Shown in pieces: positions 17,733 through 58,835 of a stretch of DNA of 64,000 nt. Position 1 is the stretch's first letter. Every line of letters begins with the position of its first letter. This DNA comes from Clostridiaceae bacterium AM27-36LB. Its GTDB lineage: Bacteria > Bacillota > Clostridia > Lachnospirales > Lachnospiraceae. The translations under genes and the position numbers were made by a program. The notes below the pieces were generated by a model that was not told the DNA's origin, did not search any database, and worked only from the letters and a program-made list of their open reading frames with translations. The stretch spans positions 124,001-188,000 of the forward strand of contig QUJQ01000001.1 in NCBI GenBank assembly GCA_003480725.1. The letters are read 5' to 3'.

Positions 17733-17833
17733 ATGTGGAATTATGAAAAGAGATTGCAATATCCGGTAAATATTAAAAATCCCAATCCGAAGATGGCACA
17801 GCTGATCATCTCACAGTTCGGTGGTCCCGATGG
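17733..17833 (+). CDS. cotJC: cotJC, first piece (N-terminal 29 codons plus repeat core)
   Basis: Start of the manganese-catalase-like coat protein CotJC (MWNYEKRLQYPVNIKNPNPK...). The CotJC sequence runs through GGPDG, encoded by the 14-bp repeat at 17820-17833, and then changes to unrelated residues that end at a stop at 17913-17915, giving a 60-residue truncated product. The missing sequence resumes in frame at 21844. The coding frame is intact at the junction (29 codons exactly), so this is an interrupted gene rather than a decayed one. Confidence 0.93.
17820..17833 (+). repeat. Left attachment core of element 1
   Basis: GGTGGTCCCGATGG, encoding GGPDG of CotJC. The identical copy is at 21844-21857. 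The flanking bases differ on both sides (C/G before, TT/CG after). Confidence 0.88.
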
Positions 17834-17874
17834 TTGGACGGGCGTTTGCAACTGGTTAGAAAATGCTATAACCG

Positions 17875-17903
17875 TTGAAGTTTTATTCAGTCAGTGTTAT
17901 ATT
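17875..17903 (+). promoter_or_regulatory. Sigma-A promoter of trkA-trkH
   Basis: TTGAAG, 17 bases, TATATT, inside element 1. The cargo genes therefore do not need the cotJ promoter. Confidence 0.6.
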
Positions 17904-17943
17904 AGAGACATCTGAATAACTTACAGGAGGATAGAGGTTTAAG

Positions 17944-19329
17944 ATGAATATAATTATTGCTGGCTGCGGTAAAGTGGGGCGTGCACTGGCAGAGCAGCTC
18001 AGCAGGGAGAAACATGATATTACGGTGATCGATCGGAAGCCGGAAGCTATTCAGCAGATTACAAATATTGCAGATGTGCGTGGGGTTGTGGGGAATGGTG
18101 CCAGCTTTGAAATTCAGATGGATGCTGGCATTGATACGGCAGATCTGATGATTGCAGTGACAGATGCGGATGAGGTGAACCTTCTGTGTTGTCTGATTGC
18201 AAAAAAAGCAGGAGGATGTCAGACGATTGCCCGTGTGCGCAATCCGGTTTATCATCATGAGATTCATCATATTAAGGATGAATTAGGACTTTCTATGGTC
18301 ATCAATCCGGAGTGGGCAGCTGCCATGGAGATGGCGCGTCTTCTTAGATTTCCATCTGCCATTGATATTGATACTTTTGCAAATGGACGGATCGAGTTAT
18401 TGAGATTCCAGCTGGAAGAGCAGAATCCACTTTGCAACAACAAGATCAAGGATCTTCATATGTTGTCCAGATGTGAAGTGCTGATCTGCATTGTAGAGCG
18501 TGGAAATGAGGTACTGATTCCAAGTGGAGAAGTGGAACTGAAGGCAGGAGACATGATTTCAGTGGTAGCTTCGCCGGTCAATGCCAGCCGGTTCTTTAAG
18601 ACCATCGGAATTGAGACTAATCAGGTGAAAAATACCATGATCATTGGAGGCGGAAAGATTTCATTCTATCTGGCAAAGCGTCTGCTGGAGATGGGAATTC
18701 AGGTTAAGATCATAGAAAAGGACAGAGATGCCTGCGAGAGACTGTGTGAGATACTGCCCAAAGCTATGATCATCAATGGAGATGGAACTGACAGGGAACT
18801 TCTGGCAGAAGAAGGACTTGCAAAAGCAGAAGGATTTGCCGCACTGACCAATATGGATGAGGAAAATGTCATGCTGGCGCTGTATGCCAAGAGTATGAGC
18901 AAGGCGAAGAAGATCACGAAAGTCAATCGAAATACGTTTGATACGATCATTGGTTCCTTGAATATTGGAAGTCTGATCTATCCAAAGCACATCACATCAG
19001 AAACGATCCTTCAGTATGTACGGGCTATGCAGAACTCTATCGGAAGTAATGTGGAGACACTGTACCGTCTGGTAGATGGAAATGCAGAGGCATTGGAGTT
19101 CGTAATCAAGGGAAAGAGCGAAGTGACTGATATTCCGTTGCAGGAGCTTCAGCTGAAACCGCATATTCTGGTATGTGCGATCAACCGAAAGGGAAAGATC
19201 ATTATCCCCAAAGGTCAGGACTGCATTCAGGAAGGAGATTCTGTGGTCATCATTACCACAGACTGCGGAGCTTATAAGGACATTCGAGATATTATGAAGA
19301 AAACATCCGGCCCGGTCGGAACACGTTAG
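17944..19329 (+). CDS. trkA: Trk potassium uptake regulatory subunit TrkA
   Basis: 461 residues made of two RCK (TrkA_N plus TrkA_C) repeats. The first Rossmann motif is IIAGCGKVGRALAEQL (residues 4-19) with the NAD-ribose acid in VIDRKPE; the second starts TMIIGGGKISFYLAKRL near residue 222. It gates the TrkH channel in response to nucleotides such as NAD(H), ATP or c-di-AMP. The ribosome binding site is ACAGGAGG. trkH follows after 19 bases, so they form one operon, here wholly inside the element that interrupts cotJC. Confidence 0.93.
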   Translation: MNIIIAGCGKVGRALAEQLSREKHDITVIDRKPEAIQQITNIADVRGVVGNGASFEIQMDAGIDTADLMIAVTDADEVNLLCCLIAKKAGGCQTIARVRNPVYHHEIHHIKDELGLSMVINPEWAAAMEMARLLRFPSAIDIDTFANGRIELLRFQLEEQNPLCNNKIKDLHMLSRCEVLICIVERGNEVLIPSGEVELKAGDMISVVASPVNASRFFKTIGIETNQVKNTMIIGGGKISFYLAKRLLEMGIQVKIIEKDRDACERLCEILPKAMIINGDGTDRELLAEEGLAKAEGFAALTNMDEENVMLALYAKSMSKAKKITKVNRNTFDTIIGSLNIGSLIYPKHITSETILQYVRAMQNSIGSNVETLYRLVDGNAEALEFVIKGKSEVTDIPLQELQLKPHILVCAINRKGKIIIPKGQDCIQEGDSVVIITTDCGAYKDIRDIMKKTSGPVGTR

Positions 19330-19348
19330 ATAAGGTGGTACGTATACA

Positions 19349-20797
19349 ATGAATAAGAAAATGATTCGTTATATTGTGGGTAGTATCATCATGCTGGAAG
19401 CGGCACTTTTGCTGCTTCCAATTCTGACAGCAATCGTATATGGAGAGTGGAATACGCTGCGTGTATTTGCAGGATCAGCCTTGTTCTGTATTGTGGCTGG
19501 TGCGCTTCTGCGAGGTAAAAAACCTGAAAATACGACCATTTTTTCAGTAGAAGGTTATGTGAGTGTTGCTCTTTGCTGGGTGGCACTTAGTATCTGCGGA
19601 GCGATCCCGTTGTGCGTCAGCGGGGTACTGCAGAATCCATTTGATGCATTTTTTGAGATTGTATCTGGATTTACTACCACAGGATCATCTGTAATGCAGA
19701 GTGTGGAGGGTGCGCCAAGAGCGATTCTTATGTGGAGAAGCTTTTCTCACTGGGTTGGCGGTATGGGAGTACTGGTATTTATGCTGGCACTTCTTCCTAT
19801 GGCAGGACCCTCCAGTATGCATCTGATGAAGGCAGAGAGCCCTGGCCCATCTGTAGGAAAACTGGTTCCGAAGGTCAGAAGTACGGCTAAAATACTGTAT
19901 CAGATTTATTTTGTGCTGACAGTTGCAATGCTCGCGTGTATGATTTTGACAGGCTGTCCGCTGTTTGATTCTATCAACTTAACATTTGCAACAGCAGGAA
20001 CCGGTGGTTTTGGCGTGCTTGACAGCAGTGCCGCAGAGTATGGCGCGGCAACCCAGTGGGTCATGACCATTTTTATGATTCTGTTTGGCGTAAACTTTAA
20101 TGTCTATTTCCTGTTTTACGTGAAGCGGTTCAAAGAGGGAATGAAAAGTGAGGAAGCTCGCGCATATCTTGGGATTATTGCGTCTGCAGTCCTGCTGATC
20201 TCTGTGAATATCTTTTATATGGTAAGAAATCTGGAGCTGACGGTTCGTCAGGCAGCTTTCCAGGTGGCGTCGATTATCACGACTACGGGATTTTCAAGCG
20301 TGGACTTTGACCTGTGGCCGGAATTTTCCAAAGGCATTCTGGTTCTGCTCATGTTTTGCGGAGCCTGTGCAGGAAGTACCGGCGGTGGTATAAAAGTGTC
20401 GAGACTCTGTATTATGGCAAAAACAGTTATGAAAGAGTTGGCATTTATCATTCACCCGAGAAATGTCCGCAAGACGCGGTTCGAAGGAAAGACAGTGGAG
20501 CATGAGGTGCTTCGTTCCATCAATGTATTTCTGGTGGCTTATCTGGGGATCTTCGTTCTGTCTGTAATGCTGATCTCGCTGGATAACTTTGATTTTGCAA
20601 CTAACTTTACAGCAGTAGCTGCAACGCTTAATAATATCGGACCTGGACTTGCAAAAGTCGGACCAACACAGAATTTTGGTATCTATTCCAATTTTTCAAA
20701 ACTGGTTCTGGCCTTTGATATGCTGGCAGGGCGTCTGGAAATCTTCCCGATGCTTGTTCCTATGATATATTTGTTAAGAAAAAAACAACTAAGCTGA
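19349..20797 (+). CDS. trkH: Trk potassium transporter membrane subunit TrkH
   Basis: 482-residue TrkH/KtrB family channel-like protein with four pore repeats. Selectivity-filter loops read FTTTGSSV (near residue 110), ATAGTGGFG, ITTTGFSSVDF and NNIGPGLAKVG. Forms the membrane path for potassium with TrkA bound on the cytoplasmic face. Followed by a terminator at 20852-20887. Confidence 0.93.
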   Translation: MNKKMIRYIVGSIIMLEAALLLLPILTAIVYGEWNTLRVFAGSALFCIVAGALLRGKKPENTTIFSVEGYVSVALCWVALSICGAIPLCVSGVLQNPFDAFFEIVSGFTTTGSSVMQSVEGAPRAILMWRSFSHWVGGMGVLVFMLALLPMAGPSSMHLMKAESPGPSVGKLVPKVRSTAKILYQIYFVLTVAMLACMILTGCPLFDSINLTFATAGTGGFGVLDSSAAEYGAATQWVMTIFMILFGVNFNVYFLFYVKRFKEGMKSEEARAYLGIIASAVLLISVNIFYMVRNLELTVRQAAFQVASIITTTGFSSVDFDLWPEFSKGILVLLMFCGACAGSTGGGIKVSRLCIMAKTVMKELAFIIHPRNVRKTRFEGKTVEHEVLRSINVFLVAYLGIFVLSVMLISLDNFDFATNFTAVAATLNNIGPGLAKVGPTQNFGIYSNFSKLVLAFDMLAGRLEIFPMLVPMIYLLRKKQLS

Positions 20798-20851
20798 AAA
20801 TAATTAAAGAAAAAGTCTTCATGCAAACACTGGAGATAACAAGAATCTGCG

Positions 20852-20887
20852 AAGACCGGACCATTAAAAAGGTCCGGTCTTGTCTTG
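20852..20887 (+). terminator. Terminator after trkH
   Basis: Stem AAGACCGGACC (20852-20862) with GGTCCGGTCTT (20871-20881), then a weak T-rich tail. It lies between trkH and the convergent recombinase gene and could serve both strands. Confidence 0.7.
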
Positions 20888-20906
20888 TCTGAACATTATT
20901 TGCAAA

Positions 20907-21764
20907 TTATGATTTTTTCTTCGTACGCATCAACAATGTCTGTGTTTGAAGGAACATTTCGCAGGAAATAATAGGTGGGTGTGTGCCAACAACACAGGTC
21001 ATATGGTCAGCAACATGAAATCGGTCAGATGATAAAGGGGAAGAAACAGAGTGGTGCTCCAGATGACGGCGCATTTGCCCGGTGTAGACAGGGTTGCCGA
21101 GAATGTAGCGGACGCCGCGGCCGTCAAAAGGATTTCCACGGATTGTTCGTACACCGGCTGTCTGTAATTCTTTGGCAATAGAAGGAATGGAAATACCGTT
21201 TAGGTAGGAATCAAAGATCCAGCGAACCCAACATGCCTGTTCCGGCACGATTATGAATTGTCCATCTCTGGCAGTGTAGCCGAAAGGCGGGATGGAGACA
21301 ATACCTCCCCGGCGGAATTTTTCATTCATGCCACGGCGGACTTCCTGAGCCAGATTGACAGAATAGTATTCGTCCATAGCTTCCAGAAGTGCTTCAATCA
21401 GAATCGAAGTAGGATCTGGAGAGAGTGGTTCTGTGATGGAGATCACATCAATACCGCATTCCCGCCGAAGCATGGATTTATAGAAGATACTGTCCTGCCG
21501 ATTTCTTGCAAATCTGGAAAATTTCCACAGGAGAATCAGGTCAAAAGGATGTGGCTTTTTTTGGGCATCAGCGATCATCTGTAAAAAAGCAGGACGTTTG
21601 CTTGCATTTCGTCCGCTGATTCCTTCGTCCAGATAGATGTGAGCAGGGAGTAGTTCAATGTGATGATTCAGAGCATATGCCTGAATACTCCGGAGCTGGC
21701 TGTCCGGGGAAAATTCCATCTGATCTTCAGTAGAGACGCGGATATAAGCAGCTGCAGTTGGCAT
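20907..21764 (-). CDS. Serine recombinase of element 1 (short form)
   Basis: 285 residues. N-terminal resolvase domain with catalytic Ser in YIRVSTEDQ (Ser11) and the ILLWKFSRFARNRQD motif, then a recombinase domain (PPFGYTARDG...VRYILGNPVYTGQM). Large serine integrases normally run to 450-550 residues with a zinc ribbon and coiled coil; both are absent here. Since the coiled coil normally blocks excision without a directionality factor, a short enzyme could act more simply. The gene starts 80 bases inside the right end of element 1, behind a sigma-E-like promoter. It presumably excises element 1. Confidence 0.9.
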   Translation of the reverse strand: MPTAAAYIRVSTEDQMEFSPDSQLRSIQAYALNHHIELLPAHIYLDEGISGRNASKRPAFLQMIADAQKKPHPFDLILLWKFSRFARNRQDSIFYKSMLRRECGIDVISITEPLSPDPTSILIEALLEAMDEYYSVNLAQEVRRGMNEKFRRGGIVSIPPFGYTARDGQFIIVPEQACWVRWIFDSYLNGISIPSIAKELQTAGVRTIRGNPFDGRGVRYILGNPVYTGQMRRHLEHHSVSSPLSSDRFHVADHMTCVVGTHPPIISCEMFLQTQTLLMRTKKKS

Positions 21765-21800
21765 AGAGAATCAAACCTCATAATGGTGGGAGTTACAGAC

Positions 21801-21829
21801 ATTGTATGAAATACAGGCATGTCATATGA
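21801..21829 (-). promoter_or_regulatory. Sigma-E-type (mother-cell) promoter of the element 1 recombinase
   Basis: Minus strand TCATATG, 14 bases, CATACAAT. Minus 10 matches the B. subtilis sigma-E consensus CATACAMT exactly, minus 35 matches KMATATT in six of seven positions, and spacing is optimal. The predicted transcript starts about 30 bases before the ATG, and GAGGT lies 10 bases before it. No competing sigma-A promoter is evident. Confidence 0.7.
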
Positions 21830-21843
21830 TCGTCCTGCCGTTG

Positions 21844-21857
21844 GGTGGTCCCGATGG
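21844..21857 (+). repeat. Right attachment core of element 1
   Basis: Second copy of GGTGGTCCCGATGG. It begins the middle piece of cotJC. Confidence 0.88.
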
Positions 21858-21951
21858 CGAATTGAGTGCCAGTATGCGATATCTGTCGCAGAGATATACG
21901 ATGCCTTATAAAGAGTGTATGGCGACACTTACGGATATTGGAACGGAGGAA
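21844..21951 (+). CDS. cotJC: cotJC, middle piece (36 codons)
   Basis: Encodes GGPDGELSASMRYLSQRY then TMPYKECMATLTDIGTEE, the internal CotJC sequence, with no start codon of its own. It is bounded on the left by the element 1 repeat and on the right by the prophage junction at 21949-21952, after which the frame reads CAHGR and stops. It ends inside the EExxH metal-ligand motif (GTEE here, LAHLE at 58410), so neither this piece nor its neighbours can form the metal site alone. Confidence 0.9.
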
Positions 21952-21972
21952 TGTGCACACGGACGGTAGAGA
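21949..21972 (+). other. Left attachment site of the prophage
   Basis: GAAT junction followed by prophage arm GTGCACACGGACGGTAG. The arm is an imperfect inverted copy of the right prophage arm CTAACCTCCGTGTGCCTAC next to the GAAT at 58407. This is the dyad symmetry expected of a serine-integrase attP. Confidence 0.75.
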
Positions 21973-22013
21973 TGATGAAATTCCATGGAAAATCAATGAA
22001 TTTTAGAGGTTGG

Positions 22014-23606
22014 TCACGCAGGGGTGACACGCGGATAGATCTTCAGTGAGAAGTTATCCGGGTGACCCCAGCGACCGTTCTCAGATTTTGAATATTCAAC
22101 GTGATCGATGACTTCCTTCAGAAGCCGGTTCTTCAGCTCTGCGCTGGTAAGCTTCGGATAGGTGTCATGGATCGTCTGCAGCGTAGGGAGCAGGTTCTTC
22201 ACTGCTTCGTTGCGTTCTGTCTCGGTCTGCAGTTCAGTCTGCAGATCCTTCAGTCTGGAAGTCAGCTCAGACTTCCTTTTCTTCATGATAGCAGATCTCT
22301 CGAAAAAAGTCACCTCATCATAGATCCCTTTTTCTAAAAGATCATATTGTTTCTGGAGCTGTCGGTCTGCCTCTGACAGATCTTCGCTGCAGGAGCTGAC
22401 TGCCTGACGGAGCAGGTCCAGCCGGTCACTGTTGTCTGGAAGGTGATCAGGATCCGGAAGAGTTCCGGAGACCAGCCATTGATCCAGTGCATCCAGGAGC
22501 CGTTGCTCCACCATGGACAGGTCAGATGCCACGGTGCTGCAGCCTTTGGTCGGACAGATCAGGGTGGCTGTCCTGCCGGACTGATAAGGACGGCGCTGCA
22601 TGATCCTGCCGCATTGGGAGCAGCAGACCAGACCAGCCAGTGGATTCTGCTGTGGTTTCACGCGGCTGCTGGAGGATGGAAGCACACGCTTTAACATCCG
22701 GTTGTGGACCGCATCCCAGGTCTCCTGGGAGATGATCGATTCATGGCGGCCGGGATACAGAGTGTAGTCGTTATTCAACGGACGGCTGCGGGTGAGCTTT
22801 CCGTCTACGATCTTCTTGACTTCTTTCCGATATCCTGATTTTATGTATCCGGCATAGACCGGATTACGTAGGATCCCCTGGATCCCATTGGGTGTCCAAC
22901 GAGTACTGGAAGGGGATGGGATGGAGAGACGGTTCAGCTCATCGGAGATGGCTGTGTAGCCAACCGGGATACCTTGCATGCCATTCCGATACCAGTCAAA
23001 GATCATGCGGACAACCTGTGCCTGGTCAGGGATGATTTCCAGGGTCCAGCCCTTTTCCTTCTTCAGCTTCTTCCGGGCATATCCGTAGGGTGGGACATTG
23101 CCGGTGTACTTCCCTTCCCGGCGGGAGGCATCAGATCCGGCAACCAGACGACGGCGGATAGTCTTATATTCCCGGCGGGACATGAATAAACCAAACTCAA
23201 AGTATTCTTCATCAAATTCGTTATTCGGGTCGTAGGTCTTGGAAGGCGTGATGATCAACGTGTTGGAAAACTTGAAGGTCTTGGCCACACGTCCCTGGTC
23301 AGAAGTATCACCTCTGGCCAGACGCTCCACTTCAACGACCAGGACGCCATCATAGATACCGGTCTCCACATCACGGAGCAGCTCCTGCATCTGAGGCCGG
23401 GCGTCAATGGATTCTCCAGAGACCACTTCCGCGTAGATCTTGACCACATTTAGCTCCATGCGCTTTGCCAGGGCTTTCAGGATGTCCAGATGGCGGGAGA
23501 GGGTCTCGCCTTCACCCATGGCTTCTGCATCCAGATCCTTCCGGGACTTCCGCAAGTAGATGGCATAAGCGCCGGATCCGTAAGTATAAGATAGATCTTC
23601 GTACAT
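22014..23606 (-). CDS. Large serine recombinase (prophage integrase/excisionase)
   Basis: 530 residues, standard length. Resolvase domain with catalytic Ser21 (YLRKSRKD), VVEVERLARGDTSDQG, then the recombinase domain (GYARKKLKKEKG...GILRNPVYAG), a zinc ribbon (CCSQCG...CPTKGCS, near residues 335-365) and a long coiled coil (about 400-490). The ATG chosen has GGAGG eight bases upstream. It reads toward the left prophage end, 62 bases from the junction, so it is the enzyme for integration into cotJC. Confidence 0.94.
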   Translation of the reverse strand: MYEDLSYTYGSGAYAIYLRKSRKDLDAEAMGEGETLSRHLDILKALAKRMELNVVKIYAEVVSGESIDARPQMQELLRDVETGIYDGVLVVEVERLARGDTSDQGRVAKTFKFSNTLIITPSKTYDPNNEFDEEYFEFGLFMSRREYKTIRRRLVAGSDASRREGKYTGNVPPYGYARKKLKKEKGWTLEIIPDQAQVVRMIFDWYRNGMQGIPVGYTAISDELNRLSIPSPSSTRWTPNGIQGILRNPVYAGYIKSGYRKEVKKIVDGKLTRSRPLNNDYTLYPGRHESIISQETWDAVHNRMLKRVLPSSSSRVKPQQNPLAGLVCCSQCGRIMQRRPYQSGRTATLICPTKGCSTVASDLSMVEQRLLDALDQWLVSGTLPDPDHLPDNSDRLDLLRQAVSSCSEDLSEADRQLQKQYDLLEKGIYDEVTFFERSAIMKKRKSELTSRLKDLQTELQTETERNEAVKNLLPTLQTIHDTYPKLTSAELKNRLLKEVIDHVEYSKSENGRWGHPDNFSLKIYPRVTPA

Positions 23607-23631
23607 AATATCATCCTCCAGTACAGTGTAT

Positions 23632-23651
23632 GATTTGCGACGTCGCAAATC
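23632..23651. promoter_or_regulatory. 20-bp perfect palindrome upstream of the prophage recombinase
   Basis: GATTTGCGACGTCGCAAATC. It overlaps the region where the recombinase promoter must lie, so it is probably an operator. Related palindromes TTGCGACGTCGCAA (36014-36027) and TTGCGATGTCGCAA (57575-57588) occur elsewhere in the prophage. An adjacent CATACACT (minus strand, 23625-23632) equals the sigma-E minus 10 consensus, but the minus 35 is poor and the implied transcript would begin inside the ribosome binding site. Confidence 0.55.
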
Positions 23652-23816
23652 GCAAAAAGGGTATAAAAATAACAGCCAGCGGGGAACAGGAGTTCCGCTT
23701 GCGTGGCTGTCCGGAAGATGATACAATGTTTTTGGCCTACAGATTGCATCATCCTTCGGGAGTGTGATCTATGTGAGACGGTTCTCTGTTGCAGCAGGGA
23801 GCCGTTTTCTTTTTTT

Positions 23817-23972
23817 TTACTTAATACCAAAGAGTCGGCCTACTTTTGCGCGACGCCCCTGTTTGGTTGTTGGAATGCCGGTTGCCTTGGCAATCTTTCT
23901 CTTTGCACTGGTAATTCCAAGCGCACGTTTCCAGCTAAATGATAATCCAGGGATTCCTTTTTTCTTAGCCAT
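23817..23972 (-). CDS. Small basic protein, 51 residues, next to the recombinase
   Basis: Starts MAKKKGIPGLSFSWKRALG, continues with lysine/arginine-rich helices and ends RLFGIK. A strong ribosome binding site (GGAGG) lies seven bases upstream. Not recognised as a known domain; I associate similar short basic proteins with phage integration regions but cannot name a family. Size, charge and position beside a serine integrase make a recombination directionality factor one possibility, which is only inference. Confidence 0.7.
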   Translation of the reverse strand: MAKKKGIPGLSFSWKRALGITSAKRKIAKATGIPTTKQGRRAKVGRLFGIK

Positions 23973-23992
23973 AGTGATGCCTCCTTTGACAA

Positions 23993-24901
23993 TTATGGGT
24001 TACATTTTCCGCATGGAGAATATCCTTGAGAAATAAGCTCTTCACGGGAATTATTGGATGTACTGTAATTCTGTGGAGCAATCTTTTTGACACTGGAGCA
24101 AGATGGACGATGAAATTTCATCGTGCTTGTATTAAGTACATAGCTTGAAGAAGTGTTTTGTTGCTGCGCATTATCGTATGTGTTGAAGTTGCTTCCATCT
24201 CCCGATCCAGAAGAATTGGATGAAGACTGCGATTCAGATCCGGCAGCAACTGCAGCAACAGATGTGCTAGTGGATGCTTTTGTAGCAGCCTCCTTTTCTG
24301 CTTGCTCTTTGGCGGCCTGTTCTTCTGCGAGACGCTGAGCTTCTGCTTCAGCAGCAGCCTTTTCTTCAGCTTCCCTCTTTGCCTTTTCCTCTGCCTCTTT
24401 AGCAGCCTGTTCCTCGGCAAGTCGTTTTTCTTCAGCTTCTTTTTCAGCTTTTTCTCTGGCAGCAATATCAACTATGTTGATTGTAATTACATTGCTTTGC
24501 ACGCCATCCGCTTGAACGTAAACTTCATAGGATCCTTCCTCTGACCCGGTTTCGATTTCAGAATTTTCAAAAGTAACAGATTCGTCACTGGTAAAATATT
24601 CTAGGTCTTTTGATGTCGCGTCTTCAGGTGTAATTACTATATCGACAGGAATGTTTGTGTTAATGTCGTACTCTTCTTGAACATCTGGAATAGAGAGTGC
24701 AATGGAGTCGACTTTGACTTTTGGAGTGAATAAACTTCCTATGCCGATAATCACAAGAGCTGCGGTTACCACAATCTTTACAGTTTTATTCCACTTCCCA
24801 TATCGCCACATCAGATAAAGTCCGATAGGGAAAAAGAAAATTAGTAACAGTATAATACCAAAAGTCTTTTGGTACCATTTTTGAGGTTCAGCTTCGCTCA
24901 T
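23993..24901 (-). CDS. Membrane-anchored protein with Ada-like C-terminal metal-binding domain
   Basis: 302 residues. Two N-terminal membrane segments, an Ig-like region (about 70-145), an Ala/Glu/Lys-rich coiled coil (about 150-225), a Ser-rich linker, then a C-terminal domain reading YVLNTSTMKFHRPSCSSV...GYSPCGKCNP. That ending (FHxxxC...CxxC) is the small Ada-like zinc domain often attached to surface proteins and nucleases. Its placement beside the repressor in the lysogeny module suggests expression in the lysogen; the role is unknown. Confidence 0.7.
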   Translation of the reverse strand: MSEAEPQKWYQKTFGIILLLIFFFPIGLYLMWRYGKWNKTVKIVVTAALVIIGIGSLFTPKVKVDSIALSIPDVQEEYDINTNIPVDIVITPEDATSKDLEYFTSDESVTFENSEIETGSEEGSYEVYVQADGVQSNVITINIVDIAAREKAEKEAEEKRLAEEQAAKEAEEKAKREAEEKAAAEAEAQRLAEEQAAKEQAEKEAATKASTSTSVAAVAAGSESQSSSNSSGSGDGSNFNTYDNAQQQNTSSSYVLNTSTMKFHRPSCSSVKKIAPQNYSTSNNSREELISQGYSPCGKCNP

Positions 24902-25007
24902 AACACGTTTCCTCCTTAGTATTTAGTTTTCAGCATTTACAGGCAAACATATTTATAATAACCCTTGCGGGATATTACCATTTTTATCCACAATACGTGG
25001 ATGGGTA

Positions 25008-25469: not shown

Positions 25470-25473
25470 AGAA

Positions 25474-25803: not shown

Positions 25804-25846
25804 GTATTTTCCTCCTTTAGCTGAAATTATCGTAACATGTCCATAA

Positions 25847-25939: not shown

Positions 25940-25956
25940 GAAACGAGGTGATTGAA

Positions 25957-51777: not shown

Positions 51778-52640
51778 TGAAGATATATTATAAAAATCAC
51801 AACGGGCAGGTCTTGGATCTGATGAAGTGGCCATATATGATCAGTGAGTCTGATGTCCTTGGATATGAATGGTCTTATACCGCAACAGAATATACGGGGA
51901 ATCGGAGCGGATCCACGATATCGGATGTAAGGAAAAAAACAGCAAAGGGATCTGTAAAAATTGCCGTTTCAGCCAGAACAAATCAGGAATACACATCAGC
52001 TCTAAATACACTTCTGTCTGTGACAGAATCAGATATCATGGCTGGTGTGCCGGGAATGTTATATGTAGATGATTATTATTACACTTGCTACGTGTATGGC
52101 AGTTCAAAAAAAGAATGGGAAGGCATGACGGCATTCCTGATCAACACTTTGAAAATCGTATCTCCATATCCTTTGTGGTGTCGGGAAATTTCAAAGTCTT
52201 TCCTTAAAAACGGGTCAACTGCTGTAGTTGAGCGCGCAGCGGACACGTACCTGTTTTATCCGGTTGCGTATCCGTATCGATATTCGATGCCCGGTAATGC
52301 CGGTTTCGTGAACAATGATCATTACGGAGATTGTGACTTTAAGATGATCATCTATGGTCCGTGTACAAATCCGGTGATCCGCATCAACGGTCATGCATAC
52401 GAAGTCATAGCGACTTTGTATGCAGGGGAATACATCCTGATCGACAGTCGGGACCATACTGTATACAGGTATCTGATCGATGGCAGGCAGCAGAACCTTT
52501 TTAACCAGAGAAATAAAGAAAGTGACCTGTTTCAAAAGGTGCCGTCTGGTCGTTGTGCTGTCCTGTGGAATGCCGCAGCATTTGGATTTGATTTGATCCT
52601 CTTCCAGGAAAGGAGCGAACCGGCATGGAATTTATCTTAG
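51777..52640 (+). CDS. Distal tail protein (Dit-like)
   Basis: 287 residues, starting in the tape measure stop codon. N-terminal sequence and order match the Dit hub: ESDVLGYEWSYTATEYTGNRSGSTISDVRKKTAKGSVKI, and KNPVIRINGHAYE-like NPVIRINGHAYEVIATL in the second half. Connects tail tube and tip. Overlaps the next gene by 16 bases. Confidence 0.8.
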   Translation: MKIYYKNHNGQVLDLMKWPYMISESDVLGYEWSYTATEYTGNRSGSTISDVRKKTAKGSVKIAVSARTNQEYTSALNTLLSVTESDIMAGVPGMLYVDDYYYTCYVYGSSKKEWEGMTAFLINTLKIVSPYPLWCREISKSFLKNGSTAVVERAADTYLFYPVAYPYRYSMPGNAGFVNNDHYGDCDFKMIIYGPCTNPVIRINGHAYEVIATLYAGEYILIDSRDHTVYRYLIDGRQQNLFNQRNKESDLFQKVPSGRCAVLWNAAAFGFDLILFQERSEPAWNLS

Positions 52641-53626
52641 CTGATCAGGATCGTATGGAGCTTGGAATATTATCTGCAGCAGCATCTCTGGACATTGATC
52701 TGTCCAGGGATGCTGAAAACGCAGAGGGAACCAATGATGGACAGATGACAGTAACAGCGGATGAAGGGATAGAATATGGAATGTATATCTTTTCTCCTGG
52801 CAGCGAGTTTGGTGGACGTATCCTGGATCTGAAGCGCAGCACAGCATCAGAGAGTCTCGTCTGGTATTTTGATACCTGGCGGCGAATGTTGGGGCAGATT
52901 ATCATTGAGCCGCCGGAAGGAGAAGCCTATAAAACGGTGAATGGTGATGCACACACAGTCCTTGCAGAACTTCTGACGGGGCGGTATGAAGGATTTTTTA
53001 CCGTGCCGGAGAAATTGTCGGGTATCACTGTATCCGGTCAATTTAACCGGTACACAACACTTCTGGACGGTATGAATAAACTGCTGGAATCATCCAGTGC
53101 AAGATTGCAGATTCAGGCTGTGCAAGGGGATATCGGAGAAGCTTTTAGGGTTGAAGTATCAGCGGTACCGATCACTGATTACAGTGCTGAGATCGAATAT
53201 AGCCAGGATAATAAGATCGATCTGACCATCCGGGATTACCGGCGGGGGATCAACCATCTGATCTGCCTTGGTACCGGTGAGTTAACAGAGCGCATGGTCC
53301 GGCATCTGTATGTGCAGGCAGATGGCAGTATTGGGATGGTACAGTATTATACCGGGCTGGATGAACGGACTGCAGTGTATGATTATCCAAATGCAGAGGA
53401 TGAAAACGAACTGCTGGAATCCGGAAAAGAGCAGCTTCAGGAACTTGCGAGTTACCAGAAACTGGAGCTGTCCGTGTCTGATGAGCTGGATCTGGCGATT
53501 GGAGACATCATTGCTGGACGAGATCGCTTGACGGGGCTGTATCTGAAAAAGCCTATTGTTAATAAGGTCTTAAAAATCAAGAAGGGGAAAGAGACCATAT
53601 CTTATAAAGTGGAAGGAGATAACTAA
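52625..53626 (+). CDS. Tail-associated protein, ReqiPepy6 Gp37-like (Tal hub)
   Basis: 333 residues: MEFILADQDRMELGIL...DIDLSRDAENAEGTNDGQMTV then VISAGRDRLTGLYL-like IIAGRDRLTGLYLKKPIVNKVLKI at the end, matching siphovirus Gp37-like hub proteins. The stop overlaps the ATG of the receptor-binding candidate. Confidence 0.8.
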   Translation: MEFILADQDRMELGILSAAASLDIDLSRDAENAEGTNDGQMTVTADEGIEYGMYIFSPGSEFGGRILDLKRSTASESLVWYFDTWRRMLGQIIIEPPEGEAYKTVNGDAHTVLAELLTGRYEGFFTVPEKLSGITVSGQFNRYTTLLDGMNKLLESSSARLQIQAVQGDIGEAFRVEVSAVPITDYSAEIEYSQDNKIDLTIRDYRRGINHLICLGTGELTERMVRHLYVQADGSIGMVQYYTGLDERTAVYDYPNAEDENELLESGKEQLQELASYQKLELSVSDELDLAIGDIIAGRDRLTGLYLKKPIVNKVLKIKKGKETISYKVEGDN

Positions 53627-54633
53627 TGCAGATAATTGATGGATATTGTAATGAACCGAATATCTTTGCTGATGATATCGGAGAATATAATACAGCCATT
53701 TGGGGAACCAGAGACTGTGTTCTTCCGGCCGGAGAACGGCTGGGTTATGAACTTGTCAGCAATAATGAGATCAAGATCAAAGATGGTGTATTTTCCACAC
53801 AGGGGCGCCGTGGTGTGATCAAAAAAGGCGCTACAGAAAGCTGCATTATTGAAAATGGTACCCAGGCAGAAAACAGAAATGATCTGATCGTAATCGAGTA
53901 TGCAAAGGACTCTTCCACGCTGGTAGAAAGCCATACCTTAAAAGTGATCAAAGGTACACCGGGAGAGGCCGCTACGGATCCGGATGTTGTGACTGGAGAT
54001 ATCCAGGCGGGTGACGTCCTGCATCAGATGCCTCTGTATCGTGTCAAGCTGGAAGGACTGAATGTGGTTGCAGTGGAAAGACTGTTTTCTGTAGGCAACA
54101 ATGCTATTGGAAAAGAATTTGATCCGGATAAAGACTATGAGATCGGAGATCTGACTCTTCAGTATAACAAGGCGTGGAAATTCAAAGTGAAACATCTGGC
54201 CGGTGCATGGGATGAAAGTCAGATGAAAGAGACGGATGTTTTGACCGAGCTTGCAGCACAAAATAAAAATTTTGGTGGATTAACATTTGCCCAAAATGCA
54301 TCCGGAGCTTGGGGATACAAGGTAGGAGGTGCTGGTTCAGTTATCCCTTTTAAGTCATTGGACATAGTGTACGTTGGAGCAATAACATCGTCAGGTAGCA
54401 TCAATGTCACGAGTAAATGTCCTAATTATAAAAAAATGACAGCTGGTGATTTTCTACTTGATTATCAGTCTATGGCGGTAAGACTATGGGACGGTAAAAT
54501 CGGAGGGTCTACAATTAACGTATCAAAATCCTATAATTCGTCAACTGGAGTACTGACTCTGTCTAATTTGTCAGCGTCTTCAAGTACATCGTATGTCAGG
54601 TGTACAGTTGGTGTTTATGCGAAAGTAAAATGA
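53626..54633 (+). CDS. Tail tip/receptor-binding protein with invertible C-terminus (module A in place)
   Basis: 335 residues. Constant part: 211 codons to 54258, starting MQIIDGYCNEPNIFADDIGEYN, with a baseplate-upper-protein-like N-terminal domain. At 54259 the 16-bp inversion site encodes QNKNF, and the variable module A (GGLTFAQNASGAWGYKVGGAGSVIPFK...) of 124 residues follows. Three other modules after 54633 start with the same site, so inversions would swap the C-terminus. Position after the tail hub and before lysis suggests the host-recognition protein. Confidence 0.85.
   Translation: MQIIDGYCNEPNIFADDIGEYNTAIWGTRDCVLPAGERLGYELVSNNEIKIKDGVFSTQGRRGVIKKGATESCIIENGTQAENRNDLIVIEYAKDSSTLVESHTLKVIKGTPGEAATDPDVVTGDIQAGDVLHQMPLYRVKLEGLNVVAVERLFSVGNNAIGKEFDPDKDYEIGDLTLQYNKAWKFKVKHLAGAWDESQMKETDVLTELAAQNKNFGGLTFAQNASGAWGYKVGGAGSVIPFKSLDIVYVGAITSSGSINVTSKCPNYKKMTAGDFLLDYQSMAVRLWDGKIGGSTINVSKSYNSSTGVLTLSNLSASSSTSYVRCTVGVYAKVK
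54259..54274 (+). repeat. Inversion site 1 (expression site)
   Basis: CAAAATAAAAATTTTG, followed by GTGG. In frame it reads QNKNF. Identical 16-bp cores are at 55040 (inverted), 56218 (direct) and 56909 (inverted); site 2 shares four more bases (GTGG). Confidence 0.88.
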
Positions 54634-54662
54634 TTTCAAAAAAAATACATCTCGAATATATT

Positions 54663-55055
54663 TTATTTAACAATTACGGCATATACAGTCCATGCTATAC
54701 CACCATAAATAATTGATCCCGAATCATTACATATTACCCAATAGCTGTTCGCAGTAGTAACTACTCCAGTATCTTTATTATATGACCATGCTGGTGAAGT
54801 ACCGTTAAAAGTTTGCGTTAATCTACAATTTCCGTAACTGTTAGTAGTAATTGTTATGGTAGTTGGAATAGCTATAATGCCATTTGACTGATATTTTGTA
54901 GGAACAGAAAACGAACCATTACCACCTATAGTGCCTATAGAAACAAGCTGACATTCTCCCTTCTTAAAAGGGACAAGGCTGCCATCAGCCTCATAGTAAC
55001 CGTAATTACCATCTCCATCGATTCCAAATGATACACCACCAAAATTTTTATTTTG
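54663..55055 (-). CDS. Silent tail-protein C-terminal module B
   Basis: 131 codons on the minus strand, open from the QNKNF site to a stop, without its own start signals. It reads GGVSFGIDGDGNYGYYEADGSLVPFKKGECQ..., clearly a diverged relative of module A (GAWGYKVGGAGSVIPFKSLD). Inverting 54259-55055 would fuse it in frame to the constant part. Confidence 0.85.
   Translation of the reverse strand, partial: QNKNFGGVSFGIDGDGNYGYYEADGSLVPFKKGECQLVSIGTIGGNGSFSVPTKYQSNGIIAIPTTITITTNSYGNCRLTQTFNGTSPAWSYNKDTGVVTTANSYWVICNDSGSIIYGGIAWTVYAVIVK
55040..55055 (-). repeat. Inversion site 2
   Basis: Inverted copy of the 16-bp site, in frame with module B. Flanking identity with site 1 extends to 21 bp in total. 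Confidence 0.88.
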
Positions 55056-55111
55056 TTGAGGAAACCGTCTCCCGCTTGATACGATTTGAGTATCGAAAGG
55101 AGGCGGCGTTT

Positions 55112-56107
55112 TTGAAGACAGAAGTAGTGGAAAAGGTGATGAACAGGATGGTGGACAAGCTGGATCCAGGACAATTACAAGAACTGAAGTCGGCACTGGT
55201 GATCAGCCTGGAAGGATATCAGATAACGCATGAAGAGACCCAGTTGTCAACAGAAGTGAATGATAACTGGGCATATGCGCAGAAATTCTTCCAGGCATTG
55301 GTTGTGGCGGGAAAGGCGAAAGGGACGATTGATACCTACAGCATGCATATCAGGATATTGCTGGATGATATTCAGAAAACAATTACAGAGATTACAGATG
55401 AGGATCTGATGTTGCATCTGGCCAGACAGAAGTACAGTCGGAATCTCAGCAACCGATACCTCAACTACAAAAGACTTGTGTTCCGGACATTCTTTGGTTG
55501 GCTCAGGAGGCGTAAATATATTGCAGAGAATCCGGCGGAGCTGTTGGATCAGATTAAGTACGATGTGACTATAAAGAAGCCATACACAGATGAGGAACGG
55601 GAAAAGATCCGGTGCAGCTGCACAAGGGAACGAGATTTAGCATTGGTAGACGTGCTTTACAGCACAGCGGCCAGGGTATCAGAGGTTGCAGCCCTTAATA
55701 GGTCGGATATTGATTTTGTAGAAAACGGCTGCATTGTACACGGAAAGGGTGGAAAAGAAAGAGTTGTGTATCTGAATGCTACTGCTGCATACCATCTGCA
55801 AACATATTTGCTGGGGCGAACAGATACGGATCCGGCATTGTTTGTATCTTGCAAAGTACCGCATAACAGGCTGACCAGAAGTGGGATAGAAGAGATCCTG
55901 CGGACATTGGGGGAACGGGCTGGGGTTAAGTTAGTGCATCCGCATAGATTCAGACGCACAGCTTTAACCAATGCAGCCAACCGGGGGATGCCACTTCAGG
56001 ACGTGCAGTGTTTGGCCGGACACAGCAGCCCGAATACTACAATGATTTATTGCACAGTGGACCAGCATAAGGTCAAAGCTGAGCACAGGATGTATTTAGC
56101 ATCGTAA
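55112..56107 (+). CDS. Tyrosine recombinase (tail-module invertase)
   Basis: 331 residues from a TTG start with AAAGGAGG seven bases upstream. N-terminal SAM-like core-binding domain, then the catalytic domain with Arg in YSTAARVSEVAALNRSD, Lys in GKGGKERVV, HPHRFRRTAL (His-x-x-Arg), LAGHSS (His) and the nucleophile Tyr in TTMIYCTVDQ. Lying between modules B and C of the array, it is analogous to Rci of the R64 shufflon. It is not the prophage integrase, since the attachment ends are served by the serine recombinase. Confidence 0.88.
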   Translation: MKTEVVEKVMNRMVDKLDPGQLQELKSALVISLEGYQITHEETQLSTEVNDNWAYAQKFFQALVVAGKAKGTIDTYSMHIRILLDDIQKTITEITDEDLMLHLARQKYSRNLSNRYLNYKRLVFRTFFGWLRRRKYIAENPAELLDQIKYDVTIKKPYTDEEREKIRCSCTRERDLALVDVLYSTAARVSEVAALNRSDIDFVENGCIVHGKGGKERVVYLNATAAYHLQTYLLGRTDTDPALFVSCKVPHNRLTRSGIEEILRTLGERAGVKLVHPHRFRRTALTNAANRGMPLQDVQCLAGHSSPNTTMIYCTVDQHKVKAEHRMYLAS

Positions 56108-56133
56108 ATCTGTAAATTTATAAATGGGTATGG

Positions 56134-56165
56134 TATAACACTCGGCTCAGTCGGGTGTGTTTGTT
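56134..56165 (+). terminator. Candidate terminator after the invertase gene
   Basis: ACACTCG-N7-CGGGTGT (one G-U pair) followed by TTTGTTGT. Would prevent read-through into module C. Confidence 0.5.
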
Positions 56166-56217
56166 GTGTCTGTGAGGCTGATATGTAGGTACATCTGAGC
56201 GCCATGACGGATCAGAG

Positions 56218-56233
56218 CAAAATAAAAATTTTG
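56218..56233 (+). repeat. Inversion site 3
   Basis: Direct copy of the 16-bp core in frame with module C. Flanks (G before, CCG after) differ from sites 1 and 2. Confidence 0.86.
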
Positions 56234-56613
56234 CCGAACTGAGTGAGAAGATACCGAATCCAGTACTTTTATGGAAAAATCCAGATCCTACGCAGAGATT
56301 TCCTGCTGATGGAACAATAGAGCTATCCAGTGGAGATTATGAATGGTTAGAAATCTATTATTATTCAAATACAACTTCTAATGGGGTTTTGTATCAAAAA
56401 GTTAAAAAGGGGGATATGCCTGTTCTTATACATGCACATTTTACATCATCTGGATCAGGATTTGGATATCGCGCGTTACAATACATTGATGATACTCACC
56501 TAAAAGGTACTGGTTATTCCATTCGGCAATACTTTTCAAACAATGTAACACCACAATTTGACAATAAGGCTACTGCATATGGTATACCTGTAAAAATCTA
56601 CGGAATCAAATAA
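56218..56613 (+). CDS. Silent tail-protein C-terminal module C
   Basis: 132 codons open from the site: QNKNFAELSEKIPNPVLLWKN...SSGDYEWLEIYYYS...IKIYGIK-type end. No start codon with a ribosome binding site. Unlike modules A and B it begins AELSEK and carries a beta-sandwich-like SGDYEWLEI segment common at phage fibre tips. Confidence 0.8.
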   Translation, partial: QNKNFAELSEKIPNPVLLWKNPDPTQRFPADGTIELSSGDYEWLEIYYYSNTTSNGVLYQKVKKGDMPVLIHAHFTSSGSGFGYRALQYIDDTHLKGTGYSIRQYFSNNVTPQFDNKATAYGIPVKIYGIK

Positions 56614-56615
56614 AA

Positions 56616-56924
56616 TCATATCAATGGGATAAAATATCCTTGTGCGTTTGTGCCAGTATATTTTATTGTCATTCCGGCACGCACAAATATGATTGATGCC
56701 ATTGAATTGTTTATCACTACAGAGCTGCTATTCGTGCTACTGAGAGCTACTAAATTGATGTCGTTAATAAAGCCAACGGCTCTCGATTTTTCTTGATATC
56801 CGCATACAACGTGAAAATATCCATCGGAAGGACAAATATAATTTTGATCTTTTACTAGCGTGACTTTATCACCAAAAGTATTCTTGCTTAAGTTCTCAGT
56901 TAGTGCCTCAAAATTTTTATTTTG
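56616..56924 (-). CDS. Silent tail-protein C-terminal module D
   Basis: 103 codons on the minus strand from the site: QNKNFEALTENLSKNTFGDKVTLVKDQNYICPSDGYFHVVCGYQ..., ending GYFIPLI. Open throughout and lacking translation signals. Its stop lies two bases from the stop of module C, so C and D are packed end to end. Confidence 0.8.
   Translation of the reverse strand, partial: QNKNFEALTENLSKNTFGDKVTLVKDQNYICPSDGYFHVVCGYQEKSRAVGFINDINLVALSSTNSSSVVINNSMASIIFVRAGMTIKYTGTNAQGYFIPLI
56909..56924 (-). repeat. Inversion site 4
   Basis: Inverted copy of the 16-bp core in frame with module D; the outermost site of the array. Confidence 0.86.
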
Positions 56925-56934
56925 TCCTACAAAA

Positions 56935-56986
56935 GGTCATTCACATGACTCCGAGCCCATCGGAATCATATGAATGGCTTTTATTA
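56935..56986 (+). terminator. Strong terminator closing the tail array
   Basis: About 20-bp stem GGTCATTCACATGACTCCGA with TCGGAATCATATGAATGGC, then TTTTATTAT. It separates the array from the lysis genes. Confidence 0.85.
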
Positions 56987-57080
56987 TGCCAAGAAAGGAG
57001 AGTGCGTCATATAATGGGAGTACGTGGACATCCGGATAGAGCCGGATATTAAAATAGCAAAGAAAAAAAGGAGAGGACGT

Positions 57081-57539
57081 ATGAATTTGAATTATATTAA
57101 AGCTTTTGTTACTACAATTATGAGTCTGGTGGCATCGATGCTGGGAGTGTTATACATTCCTGTGCTCCTGATGGTTGCCTGCAACGTGATCGATTATGTC
57201 ACTGGCATCTGGGCATCTGGGTATCGTCAGGATGGAGGTGTCAGTTCTTATCGTAGCATGCGTGGGATCATTAAAAAGGTGACCATGTGGTTATTGGTAT
57301 TTGTAGGTGCTATCATTGATCAGCTTCTGGCATATGCATCTCAGACGATAGGATATCAGCTGCCGTTTACATTCTTGGTGGCATGTGTGGTGGCAATTTG
57401 GATCATCTGCAATGAGCTGATCAGCATTCTGGAAAATATGGTCGATATTGGAATCGAACTGCCTGCATTTTTGCTTCCGCTGGTGAGAAAATTGAAAACT
57501 ACAGTGGATAAGATGGGCGGAGCGGACCAGGAAGAATAG
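57081..57539 (+). CDS. Phage holin
   Basis: 152 residues with three to four membrane helices (TIMSLVASMLGVLYIPVLLMVACNVIDYVTG, GIIKKVTMWLLVFVGAIIDQLL, FTFLVACVVAIWIICNELISILENM) and a charged C-terminus. This is the toxin-secretion/phage-lysis holin family of Clostridia. The ATG chosen has AGGAGAGG upstream; a GTG frame extension to 57024 has none. Confidence 0.9.
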   Translation: MNLNYIKAFVTTIMSLVASMLGVLYIPVLLMVACNVIDYVTGIWASGYRQDGGVSSYRSMRGIIKKVTMWLLVFVGAIIDQLLAYASQTIGYQLPFTFLVACVVAIWIICNELISILENMVDIGIELPAFLLPLVRKLKTTVDKMGGADQEE

Positions 57540-57548
57540 TATAAATTG

Positions 57549-57576
57549 TGGGGGCGGCATGAGCTACCCCCTTTTT
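57549..57576 (+). terminator. Hairpin between holin and endolysin
   Basis: GGGGG...CCCCC followed by TTTTT, immediately joined to the palindrome TTGCGATGTCGCAA (57575-57588). The combination sits just before the endolysin ribosome binding site and may set the holin/endolysin ratio. Confidence 0.5.
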
Positions 57577-57602
57577 GCGATGTCGCAAGAAAGGAGAACT
57601 AT

Positions 57603-58376
57603 ATGGCAACAATTATGATCGGATCCGCGCGGATCGATGAGCGCGGCAAGTTATCCGGCGGAGCTGTCGGAGATCAGAAGCAGACATCCAGAACCAACGA
57701 TACCAAGGGCGAGGTAAGCATGCAGCCGTTTTATGTACATAGTAAAGGCTGGTACATCCTGCGACCGAAGAATGCAGCTCTGGCCGCAAAGATGGCTGAG
57801 CGGATGACTGCCGCCTGCAACAACAAAAATATCGGCTATGACCAGGGTAATCGACTGGGAGTCATTATTTATAGTATCAATACCAAGACAAAGACCGAGT
57901 GCGATTGCAGCAGTCTGACCAGACAAGTTGTTAAAGAGGCATCTGGTAAGGATCCGGGTAATTTTACCACGGCAAATGCAGCAGCAGTTCTGGGAGCAAC
58001 TGGGCTGTTTATGTCTAAAATCGCGTATGTGTCTCAGGCAAAGACCCCGATTTACAACGGCGACATCTTGGTGACAAAGACCAAAGGGCATATTGTAGTA
58101 GTGGTGTCTGGACACCCTCGGAGTCAGACGCAGAACAGCGGGTCAGGAAGCAGTGTAGCGAAAGGAGAATATAATATGCAGACAATCAGAAAAGGCAGCA
58201 AAGGAAAAGCAGTGAAGATCTGGCAGGTAATACTGGGATACACCGGAAGCAAGATTGACGGAATCTTCGGATCCGGCACTGAGGCAGATACAAGGACCTG
58301 GCAGAAAGCACATGGCCTGACTGCTGATGGAATTGTTGGAGCGAAGAGCTGGAAAGCTGGTCTGGAATCAGCATAA
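57603..58376 (+). CDS. Phage endolysin with peptidoglycan-binding domain
   Basis: 257 residues. N-terminal cysteine peptidase/amidase-type domain with probable catalytic Cys102 (ECDCSSLTRQ) and His163 (KGHIVVVV), as in NlpC/P60 or CHAP enzymes of clostridial phages. A Ser/Gly linker leads to a PG_binding_1 domain (about 191-257: IRKGSKGKAVKIWQVILG...GIFGSGTEADTRTWQKAHGLTADGIVG). Cleaves host peptidoglycan at the end of the lytic cycle. Last gene of the prophage, ending 30 bases before the right junction. Confidence 0.9.
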   Translation: MATIMIGSARIDERGKLSGGAVGDQKQTSRTNDTKGEVSMQPFYVHSKGWYILRPKNAALAAKMAERMTAACNNKNIGYDQGNRLGVIIYSINTKTKTECDCSSLTRQVVKEASGKDPGNFTTANAAAVLGATGLFMSKIAYVSQAKTPIYNGDILVTKTKGHIVVVVSGHPRSQTQNSGSGSSVAKGEYNMQTIRKGSKGKAVKIWQVILGYTGSKIDGIFGSGTEADTRTWQKAHGLTADGIVGAKSWKAGLESA

Positions 58377-58384
58377 AAATATCA

Positions 58385-58410
58385 TCTCTAACCTCCGTGT
58401 GCCTACGAAT
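58385..58410 (+). other. Right attachment site of the prophage
   Basis: Prophage arm CTAACCTCCGTGTGCCTAC then GAAT and cotJC sequence. With the left arm (GTGCACACGGACGGTAG) it forms an imperfect palindrome around the crossover. Confidence 0.75.
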
Positions 58411-58835
58411 TAGCCCATCTTGAAATGATTTGTACCATTGTTTATCAGCTGACCAAGAATATGACCATAGAAGAATTAAAGGCATCTGGTTTTGATAAAT
58501 ATTATGTGGATCACACAGCAGCACTATGGCCACAGGCAGCAGGTGGAATTCCCTTCAATGCCTGTGAGTTCCAGTCCAAGGGAGATGTGATCACAGATCT
58601 TCATGAGGATCTCGCAGCAGAACAGAAAGCAAGAACCACATATGACAACCTGCTTCGGTTGGTCAAAGACCCGGAAGTGGCAGATCCGTTACGTTTTCTG
58701 AGGGAGAGAGAAATTGTTCATTATCAGAGATTTGGAGAATGTTTAAGAATCACACAGGAACATCTGGATGCGAAGAACTTCTATATTATGAATCCTGAAT
58801 TTGATACGGGAATCCAGGGAAATTGTAAGAATTAA
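58407..58835 (+). CDS. cotJC: cotJC, third piece (C-terminal 142 codons)
   Basis: In frame from GAA-TTA: ELAHLEMICTIVYQLTKNMT...DHTAALWPQAAGGIPFNACEFQSKGDVITDLHEDLAAEQKARTTYDNLLRL...REREIVHYQRFGE, ending GNCKN. It contains the His of EExxH, the central HEDLAAEQ ligand region and the late ExxH of the manganese-catalase fold. There is no promoter or proper start here, so the piece is silent unless both elements are removed. Joined to codons 1-65 it gives a standard CotJC of 206 residues. Confidence 0.93.
   Translation, partial: ELAHLEMICTIVYQLTKNMTIEELKASGFDKYYVDHTAALWPQAAGGIPFNACEFQSKGDVITDLHEDLAAEQKARTTYDNLLRLVKDPEVADPLRFLREREIVHYQRFGECLRITQEHLDAKNFYIMNPEFDTGIQGNCKN

Follow-up and report, generated by a model that had tools for sequence, protein, structure and literature searches.

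The spore coat gene cotJC of Clostridiaceae bacterium AM27-36LB is divided into three pieces by two separate elements, each with its own serine recombinase. We studied this gene within a stretch of 64,000 nucleotides (contig QUJQ01000001.1 of assembly GCA_003480725.1, positions 124,001 to 188,000 of the forward strand; hereafter the window), in which a small element (element A) and a tailed-phage prophage (element B) interrupt the last gene of the cotJABC operon. The two elements are probably excised in the mother cell during sporulation, an event predicted to restore a manganese-catalase-type coat protein of 206 residues. The operon, the pieces of cotJC and the elements are arranged as follows.

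17272..17463, + strand: cotJA (PF11007), start of the cotJABC operon
17460..17732, + strand: cotJB (PF12652)
17733..17819, + strand: cotJC piece 1, residues 1-29, with the break after codon 29
17820..17833, + strand: left copy (attL1) of the site A core, GGTGGTCCCGATGG, 14 base pairs (bp)
17834..21843, no strand assigned: element A, 4.0 kilobases (kb), between the site A cores
21844..21857, + strand: right copy (attR1) of the site A core, GGTGGTCCCGATGG, 14 bp
21844..21948, + strand: cotJC piece 2, residues 30-64, with the break after codon 64
21949..21952, + strand: left copy (attL2) of the site B core, GAAT, 4 bp
21953..58406, no strand assigned: element B, tailed-phage prophage judged by gene content, 36.5 kb
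58407..58410, + strand: right copy (attR2) of the site B core, GAAT, 4 bp
58407..58835, + strand: cotJC piece 3, residues 65-206 and the stop codon (PF05067)

Joining the three pieces (17733-17819, 21844-21948 and 58407-58835) gives 206 residues, with TEELAHLEM at site B. This confirms the three plus-strand pieces and the precise, restorable joins proposed in a preliminary description of this DNA. The same description held that no codon is lost or gained at either join; the joined gene is indeed restorable, but the end it assigned to piece 2 (21951) yields 207 residues with TEEELAH, since both pieces then include the GAA codon of site B, and we rejected it in favour of 21948. Membership of the CotJC family is indicated by PF05067 on piece 3, by cotJA and cotJB upstream, and by matches of the joined protein to the manganese catalases 1jku and 6j42. 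The cores of sites A and B each form a direct repeat, so recombination between them would delete rather than invert the intervening DNA.

Counting one copy of the core, element A measures 4,024 bp and element B 36,458 bp, in agreement with the 4.0-kb element and 36.5-kb prophage described before. Their recombinases, Int1 and Int2, share 27% identity over 260 residues, which bears out the claim of two independent elements with different enzymes. It had further been supposed that two ordered or simultaneous excisions would be needed; since the elements lie side by side, neither order nor simultaneity is required. The reconstructed phage attachment site (attP) of the prophage is a strong dyad, with 21 of 30 positions paired (equalled by 0 of 500 shuffled sequences), and that of element A a weaker one, with 16 of 30 paired (equalled by 13 of 500). 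At 58900-59051, beyond the 3′ end of cotJC, the DNA runs into a tRNA-Leu gene and includes a short stretch that resembles an integrase tail and may be a scar left by a further element.

The split gene belongs to a recurring pattern. By CotJC the closest genome among those compared is that of Eubacteriales bacterium isolate S27M_St_57 (G001, locus L001; 93%), and the next 79 loci come mostly from Lachnospiraceae, their genera, or Clostridiales. We searched 195 genomes (the relatives of G001, itself included) with the joined protein and found a cotJC match in 128; 74 of these were searched again at E values of up to 10, with the pieces judged by hand. Where one piece ends and another starts at a site, the gene was called split. 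By this rule cotJC is split in 49 of the 128 genomes. Four sites recur (A in 28, B in 20, C in 14 and D in 4), and a gene may be split at more than one of them; in 29 genomes a single contig holds the two pieces that flank at least one site, and in 20 the pieces are found only across contigs. Fourteen genomes have more than one split site (G004, G008, G010, G011, G013, G014, G016, G018, G019, G078, G116, G138, G181 and G184), and all their pieces lie on one contig in six of them (G004, G008, G013, G014, G016 and G018). G016 holds three elements on one contig, while G011 and G184 are split at three sites across contigs. The preliminary description knew of no double case described in cotJC; among these genomes the double interruption is no isolated case. 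Genomes in which the partner or the site was unclear (G030, G035, G067, G076, G114, G140 and the frameshifted G056) are excluded from these counts, G030 because its partner piece begins at a contig end, as are the second sites of G015 and G019.

The four sites read GGPDG (A), TEE/LAH (B), AAE (C) and FGEA (D), and the cores sit in well conserved codons. If the manganese ligands are those that we presume for manganese catalases, sites A to C overlap or adjoin ligand codons, with site D a few residues past one; only the homology to 1jku and 6j42 was computed. Five of the split genomes also hold an intact cotJC elsewhere (G010, G013, G048, G052 and G065) and two hold a distant second cotJC (31%; G132 and G181), while the genome searches listed no other full-length cotJC in the remaining split genomes. 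Several loci carry further irregularities. On contig C68 of G079 the 3′ piece (residues 58-200) occurs twice in tandem, at 14657-15088 and 18197-18628, with the 5′ piece on another contig. Degenerate extra cotJC fragments lie past the 3′ end of the split gene at L120:784-942 (G009) and L131:13943-14008 (G017), perhaps remnants of a duplication or of an old attachment site. The site A element of G065 (contig C1, 2098502-2185809) spans about 87 kb of a contig of 6.93 megabases.

Split cotJC does not behave like a dead gene. We assembled 24 complete sets of pieces, namely the window and 23 of the 49 split genomes; those of G006, G015, G019, G116, G117 and the uncounted G030 were incomplete. Internal stops are absent from all 24, and the two copies of the core that flank a join share one codon register. 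Because the frame at each join was set by homology, being in frame is partly so by construction, and core register and absence of stops are the independent facts. Stop flags that were checked in the DNA (for example in G005, G006, G008, G047 and G065) fall within element sequence just before a piece. We then compared non-synonymous with synonymous substitution rates (dN/dS; Nei-Gojobori method, pairs with dS of 0.15-1.2) and obtained medians of 0.040 for split-split pairs (11 pairs) and 0.043 for intact-intact pairs (44 pairs). The corresponding ratio of proportions of differences (pN/pS), taken by segment over 15 within-clade pairs in three clades, was 0.044 for residues 1-29, 0.038 for residues 30-64, 0.071 for residues 65-133 and 0.048 for residues 134-197; for piece 1 in one clade, six pairs together show 26 synonymous and 0 non-synonymous differences. 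In the three testable clades, therefore, split copies are under the same purifying selection as intact ones, the orphan N-terminal piece included. That the pieces are under selection in split relatives favours the idea that the gene is reconstituted.

Between the cores of site A lie two potassium uptake genes and the recombinase gene.

17944..19329, + strand: trkA, potassium uptake, element A cargo (PF02254/PF02080), 88% to the L001 copy 3′ of intact cotJC
19349..20797, + strand: trkH, potassium uptake, element A cargo (PF02386), 80% to L001
20907..21764, - strand: int1, serine recombinase of element A, 285 residues (PF00239, PF07508), lacking the zinc ribbon and coiled-coil regions of longer relatives

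All 15 element A loci of the window's clade (the window, G004-G006, G008-G011 and G013-G019) contain trkA, trkH and an int1 relative (about 58-63% identity), and seven (L118-L121, L125, L131 and L132) also contain an 872-residue adhE, a label given from the sequence without a family search. In one of them, L118:2025-3421 (G005), trkA consists of two overlapping frames, whereas the other element A copies are unbroken. Five other site A elements (G033, G047, G052, G065 and G093) encode recombinases more distantly related to Int1, and the stretches examined, complete for the element only in G047 and G093, contain no trk genes. The cargo itself argues against the earlier picture of element A as a plain foreign element, for it is the host-type block that lies directly 3′ of cotJC in the closest relative. 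Among 110 loci, 65 of which hold at least 3 kb downstream, trk genes follow a full-length-type cotJC only in L001 (present again as L087), L002 and L073; in G117 trkA comes after the 3′ piece of cotJC. Trees of trkA, trkH and cotJC recover the same small groups, with the window paired with L001 in both trk trees, and their deeper order differs or lacks support. We read this as vertical inheritance of an element A that would have captured a host block, with either a reversal in L001 or an independent capture in the window. The idea that element A is the sole source of TrkH was rejected, as another TrkH gene is present in 15 of 15 genomes.

The short form of Int1 is not a one-off, since a 285-residue protein 97% identical to it heads a cluster of 751 sequences; among 120 listed relatives, 50 have 274-298 residues and 65 are longer. 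The full long coiled-coil region occurs only in G005, G008, G013 and G018 among the 14 element A recombinases aligned. According to the available part of one report, deletion of the coiled coil impaired directionality control in one serine integrase and abolished activity in another (PMC10754689). From these outcomes, Int1 may act one-way alone or may need help.

Two promoter-like sites bear on when the recombinase and the operon might be expressed.

17212..17240, + strand: cotJ operon promoter-like site, sigma-K-like, TCACCTT-N14-CATAAGAT, a motif present before cotJA in 95 of 106 loci
21801..21829, - strand: sigma-E-type promoter site before int1, TCATATG-N14-CATACAAT, 15.2 bits

The motif before cotJA is one that we take to be of the sigma-K type. 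An attempt to build a sigma-E model from the regions upstream of cotJA failed, the cotJA promoter being of this other type. The model used here was trained on the upstream regions of spoIIID (found in 28 of 30 relatives) and spoIVA (27 of 30); 46 of 51 sequences were used, five being dropped for want of a frame or start, and 43 of the 46 fit. Scanning both strands of the window gave four sites of at least 12 bits, the best of which (15.2 bits) lies directly before int1. Of the 15 element A recombinases 13 could be scored, and a score of 12 bits is attained by nine (the window, five members of the G004 clade, G009, G017 and G006), compared with none of 19 other recombinases of the same genomes and 12 of 1500 random windows. 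These 19 controls, which include a few near-duplicates, came from the 30 best-scoring loci after nine in cotJC were excluded and two of the remaining 21 proved unscorable. Within the window's clade the threshold is reached by nine of ten recombinases mostly or wholly without the coiled-coil region versus none of three that have it; a coupling between the two traits was considered and dropped, since L317, a truncated int1 relative from a wider draw, scores only 6.4 bits. Seven int1-family recombinases with no cotJC within 1.5 kb (L324, L326, L334, L341, L342, L344 and L345) score 11-13 bits and may lie in other sporulation genes.

Element B carries the genes of a tailed phage, with int2 beside its left end; those for terminase, portal, head proteins, tape measure, holin and an endolysin-like protein make up its structural and lysis set, as far as gene presence goes.

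22014..23606, - strand: int2, large serine recombinase, 530 residues, ATG at 23606 (PF00239, PF07508; PF13408 just under the cut-off), beside the left end
31231..33105, + strand: phage primase/helicase
39142..40494, + strand: terminase large subunit
40504..42012, + strand: portal protein
45220..46131, + strand: major head protein
49435..51777, + strand: tail tape measure protein
57024..57539, + strand: holin
57546..58376, + strand: endolysin-like protein (PF25309, PF01471)

Phage records held no near match for positions 22000-46000 of the window, and a search of viral contigs for an exact 27-base core pattern gave no match. Relatives of int2 were found in 67 viral contigs. In 15 of these a piece of cotJC begins at residues 61-64; it lies no more than about 75 bases from the match to the integrase, apart from L310, where the distance is about 1.4 kb. 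A further contig, L311, has a weak cotJC match (E value 0.007). Many of the remaining contigs end directly after the integrase and are uninformative as to adjoining cotJC. In L276 and L290 the piece ends again at site C (residue 136). Pieces that start at these residues beside int2 relatives indicate that site B is a usual bacterial attachment site (attB) of this phage family. One more viral contig, L313, has an int1 relative (49%) beside a cotJC piece spanning residues 28-65 and is apparently another double of A and B. The prophage also contains a tRNA-Met gene (window 38508-38582) and, on the minus strand at 35234, a strong match to the cotJ-type promoter (18.9 bits) before a 44-codon frame.

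Public proteins preserve natural alleles of this locus. Four predicted proteins of 95-97% (P0004, P0006, P0007 and P0009; P0006 stands for a cluster of 302) begin at MIVLPLGGPDG, the right element A junction of the window, or slightly ahead of it, and read through site B, so close relatives carry element A without the prophage. P0001 and P0005 look like chimaeras. In P0002 and P0010, also predicted CotJC proteins, an internal stretch of about 25-50 residues around sites C to D occurs twice in tandem.

Taken together, these results suggest the following course of events. In the mother cell sigma E, the early sigma factor of that compartment, would drive production of Int1, which would join attL1 to attR1 and so remove element A; the prophage would leave through Int2 and a putative directionality factor, and the two excisions would need no fixed order. 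The rebuilt cotJABC operon would then be read from the later, sigma-K-like promoter. The forespore would keep both elements, and the dying mother cell alone would lose the trkA-trkH cargo. Element A looks like an old, inherited and domesticated interruption, and element B like a still variable lysogen of the phage family that appears to use site B as attB.

A number of observations weigh against excision in the mother cell. No excision product was seen. Among 120 listed proteins, in a database clustered at 90%, none above 88% runs through site A as an allele empty of element A would; such clustering could hide that allele, which makes its absence weak evidence for element A being fixed. In L001, the closest relative, cotJC is intact, with trkA, trkH and adhE directly downstream and outside the gene. 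Int1 is without regions whose deletion can abolish activity, as the available part of the integrase report has it (PMC10754689). No sigma-E-type site of at least 12 bits serves int2 or any prophage gene in the scan of both window strands, and no candidate for a directionality factor emerged, a question on which only the promoter scans bear. Besides the low score of L317, sites of at least 12 bits precede only one of five other site A recombinases, none of ten at site B and none of six at site C; those at site D proved unscorable. In the wider draw, which covered 397 genomes (50 of them with a close relative of int1) and in which 29 of 30 loci were scored, they precede two of 13 recombinases beside cotJC (G017 and G093, already counted) and two of 16 elsewhere, and five more recombinases away from cotJC score about 11-12 bits. 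On these scores the putative sigma-E-type site is a property of the window's element A clade and not a general mark of cotJC elements. As to selection, the pairs come from three clades and are mutually non-independent, mixed split-intact pairs give a dN/dS of 0.148 (4 pairs), and the window itself, compared against L001, gives no usable dS. Search output also flags stops in the unassembled split genes of G126 (four) and of G031 and G138 (two).

Other explanations must be set against excision in the mother cell. The four conserved sequences of cotJC might simply be attB sites in an integration hot spot, the gene being dead in its carriers and never restored in development. The placement of the cores in well conserved codons, the use of site B by a phage family, the failure to find a mother-cell promoter in the prophage and the stop flags in some split genes would all fit; yet split pieces, piece 1 among them, evolve like intact genes in three clades, all 24 assembled sets are free of stops and element A has been kept over many species, and we regard a dead gene as unlikely. 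The same constraint on piece 1 weighs against the proposal that element A supplies a new start, so that the downstream piece is made alone as MIVLPL-GGPDG… and element A need not leave. An in-frame ATG at 21826 in the window and the predicted proteins that begin there or slightly upstream (P0004, P0006, P0007 and P0009) lend it some plausibility, whereas in the site A loci L118, L119, L139, L144 and L151 stops occur a few codons before the downstream piece; we find this proposal hardly credible.

Low-level stochastic excision during growth, with only the element-free cells of a mixed population making normal spores, would agree with the B-empty allele in close relatives and has a parallel in the yin element of yabG, reported as excised at all time points in the available part of its description (PMC10747680). 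Under such a mixture the spore line would lose element A together with trkA-trkH, but element A is found again in a range of species that fall into matching groups; the presence of a sigma-E-type site ahead of int1 also speaks against it, and we judge it very unlikely. Excision in the mother cell remains the reading that we prefer. A broader version of it, which we put forward tentatively and at somewhat less than even chances, is that cotJC of Lachnospiraceae resembles a multi-exon gene, with up to three elements at four fixed sites, each with its own recombinase and all removed before the coat protein is made. In that version the oldest element would turn trkA-trkH, in some species together with adhE, into a germline-only block subject to programmed deletion in a terminal cell.

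These findings present cotJC as a serial target for insertion, with four recurring sites, doubles and triples, and an apparently old domesticated element beside a variable prophage, while purifying selection says that the split gene still works. They open to test how several excisions are coordinated, what turns a prophage into a skin-like element, and why a gene needed only by a doomed mother cell should attract phages. If true, a host gene block within an excisable element would mean that a terminal cell of a bacterium loses host genes in a programmed way. We found no published interruption of cotJC and no report of several elements in one sporulation gene, in a literature search with thin coverage of subscription journals. 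The published intervening elements skin, SPbeta, gin, vfbin and yin are each described, in the available parts of the sources cited below, as one insertion per gene.

The window shares with skin-type systems a sporulation gene split with precise restoration of the frame, a recombinase beside an attachment site and direct-repeat cores. Like skin in sigK of Bacillus subtilis and Clostridioides difficile, as portrayed in the accessible text of the reports (PMC10747680, PMC5595907), the cotJC elements are serine-recombinase elements in a mother-cell sporulation gene that is restored precisely under mother-cell control, here predicted; the target there, however, is a sigma factor interrupted by one element, whereas here it is a coat protein and element A carries a host block. 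Element B resembles SPbeta in spsM of B. subtilis, a whole prophage with a large serine recombinase that splits a spore-envelope gene (PMC4191935, in the part available), but we found for it neither an SprB-like factor nor a mother-cell promoter, and cotJC holds a second element. Element A can be likened to gin in gerE of Bacillus cereus, a non-phage intervening element with serine recombinases, although gin, in the section of the source at hand, is a single element of 28.6 kb with three recombinases (PMC5595907). In vfbin of spoVFB and yin of yabG a mobile element likewise splits a sporulation gene, with one element each and in other genes, according to the accessible portion of that work (PMC10747680). 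The heterocyst interruption elements of cyanobacteria, in a different lineage and different genes, offer a further parallel, for there too, in the available text, genes of a terminal cell type are repeatedly interrupted, with many elements per clade (PMC4874684).

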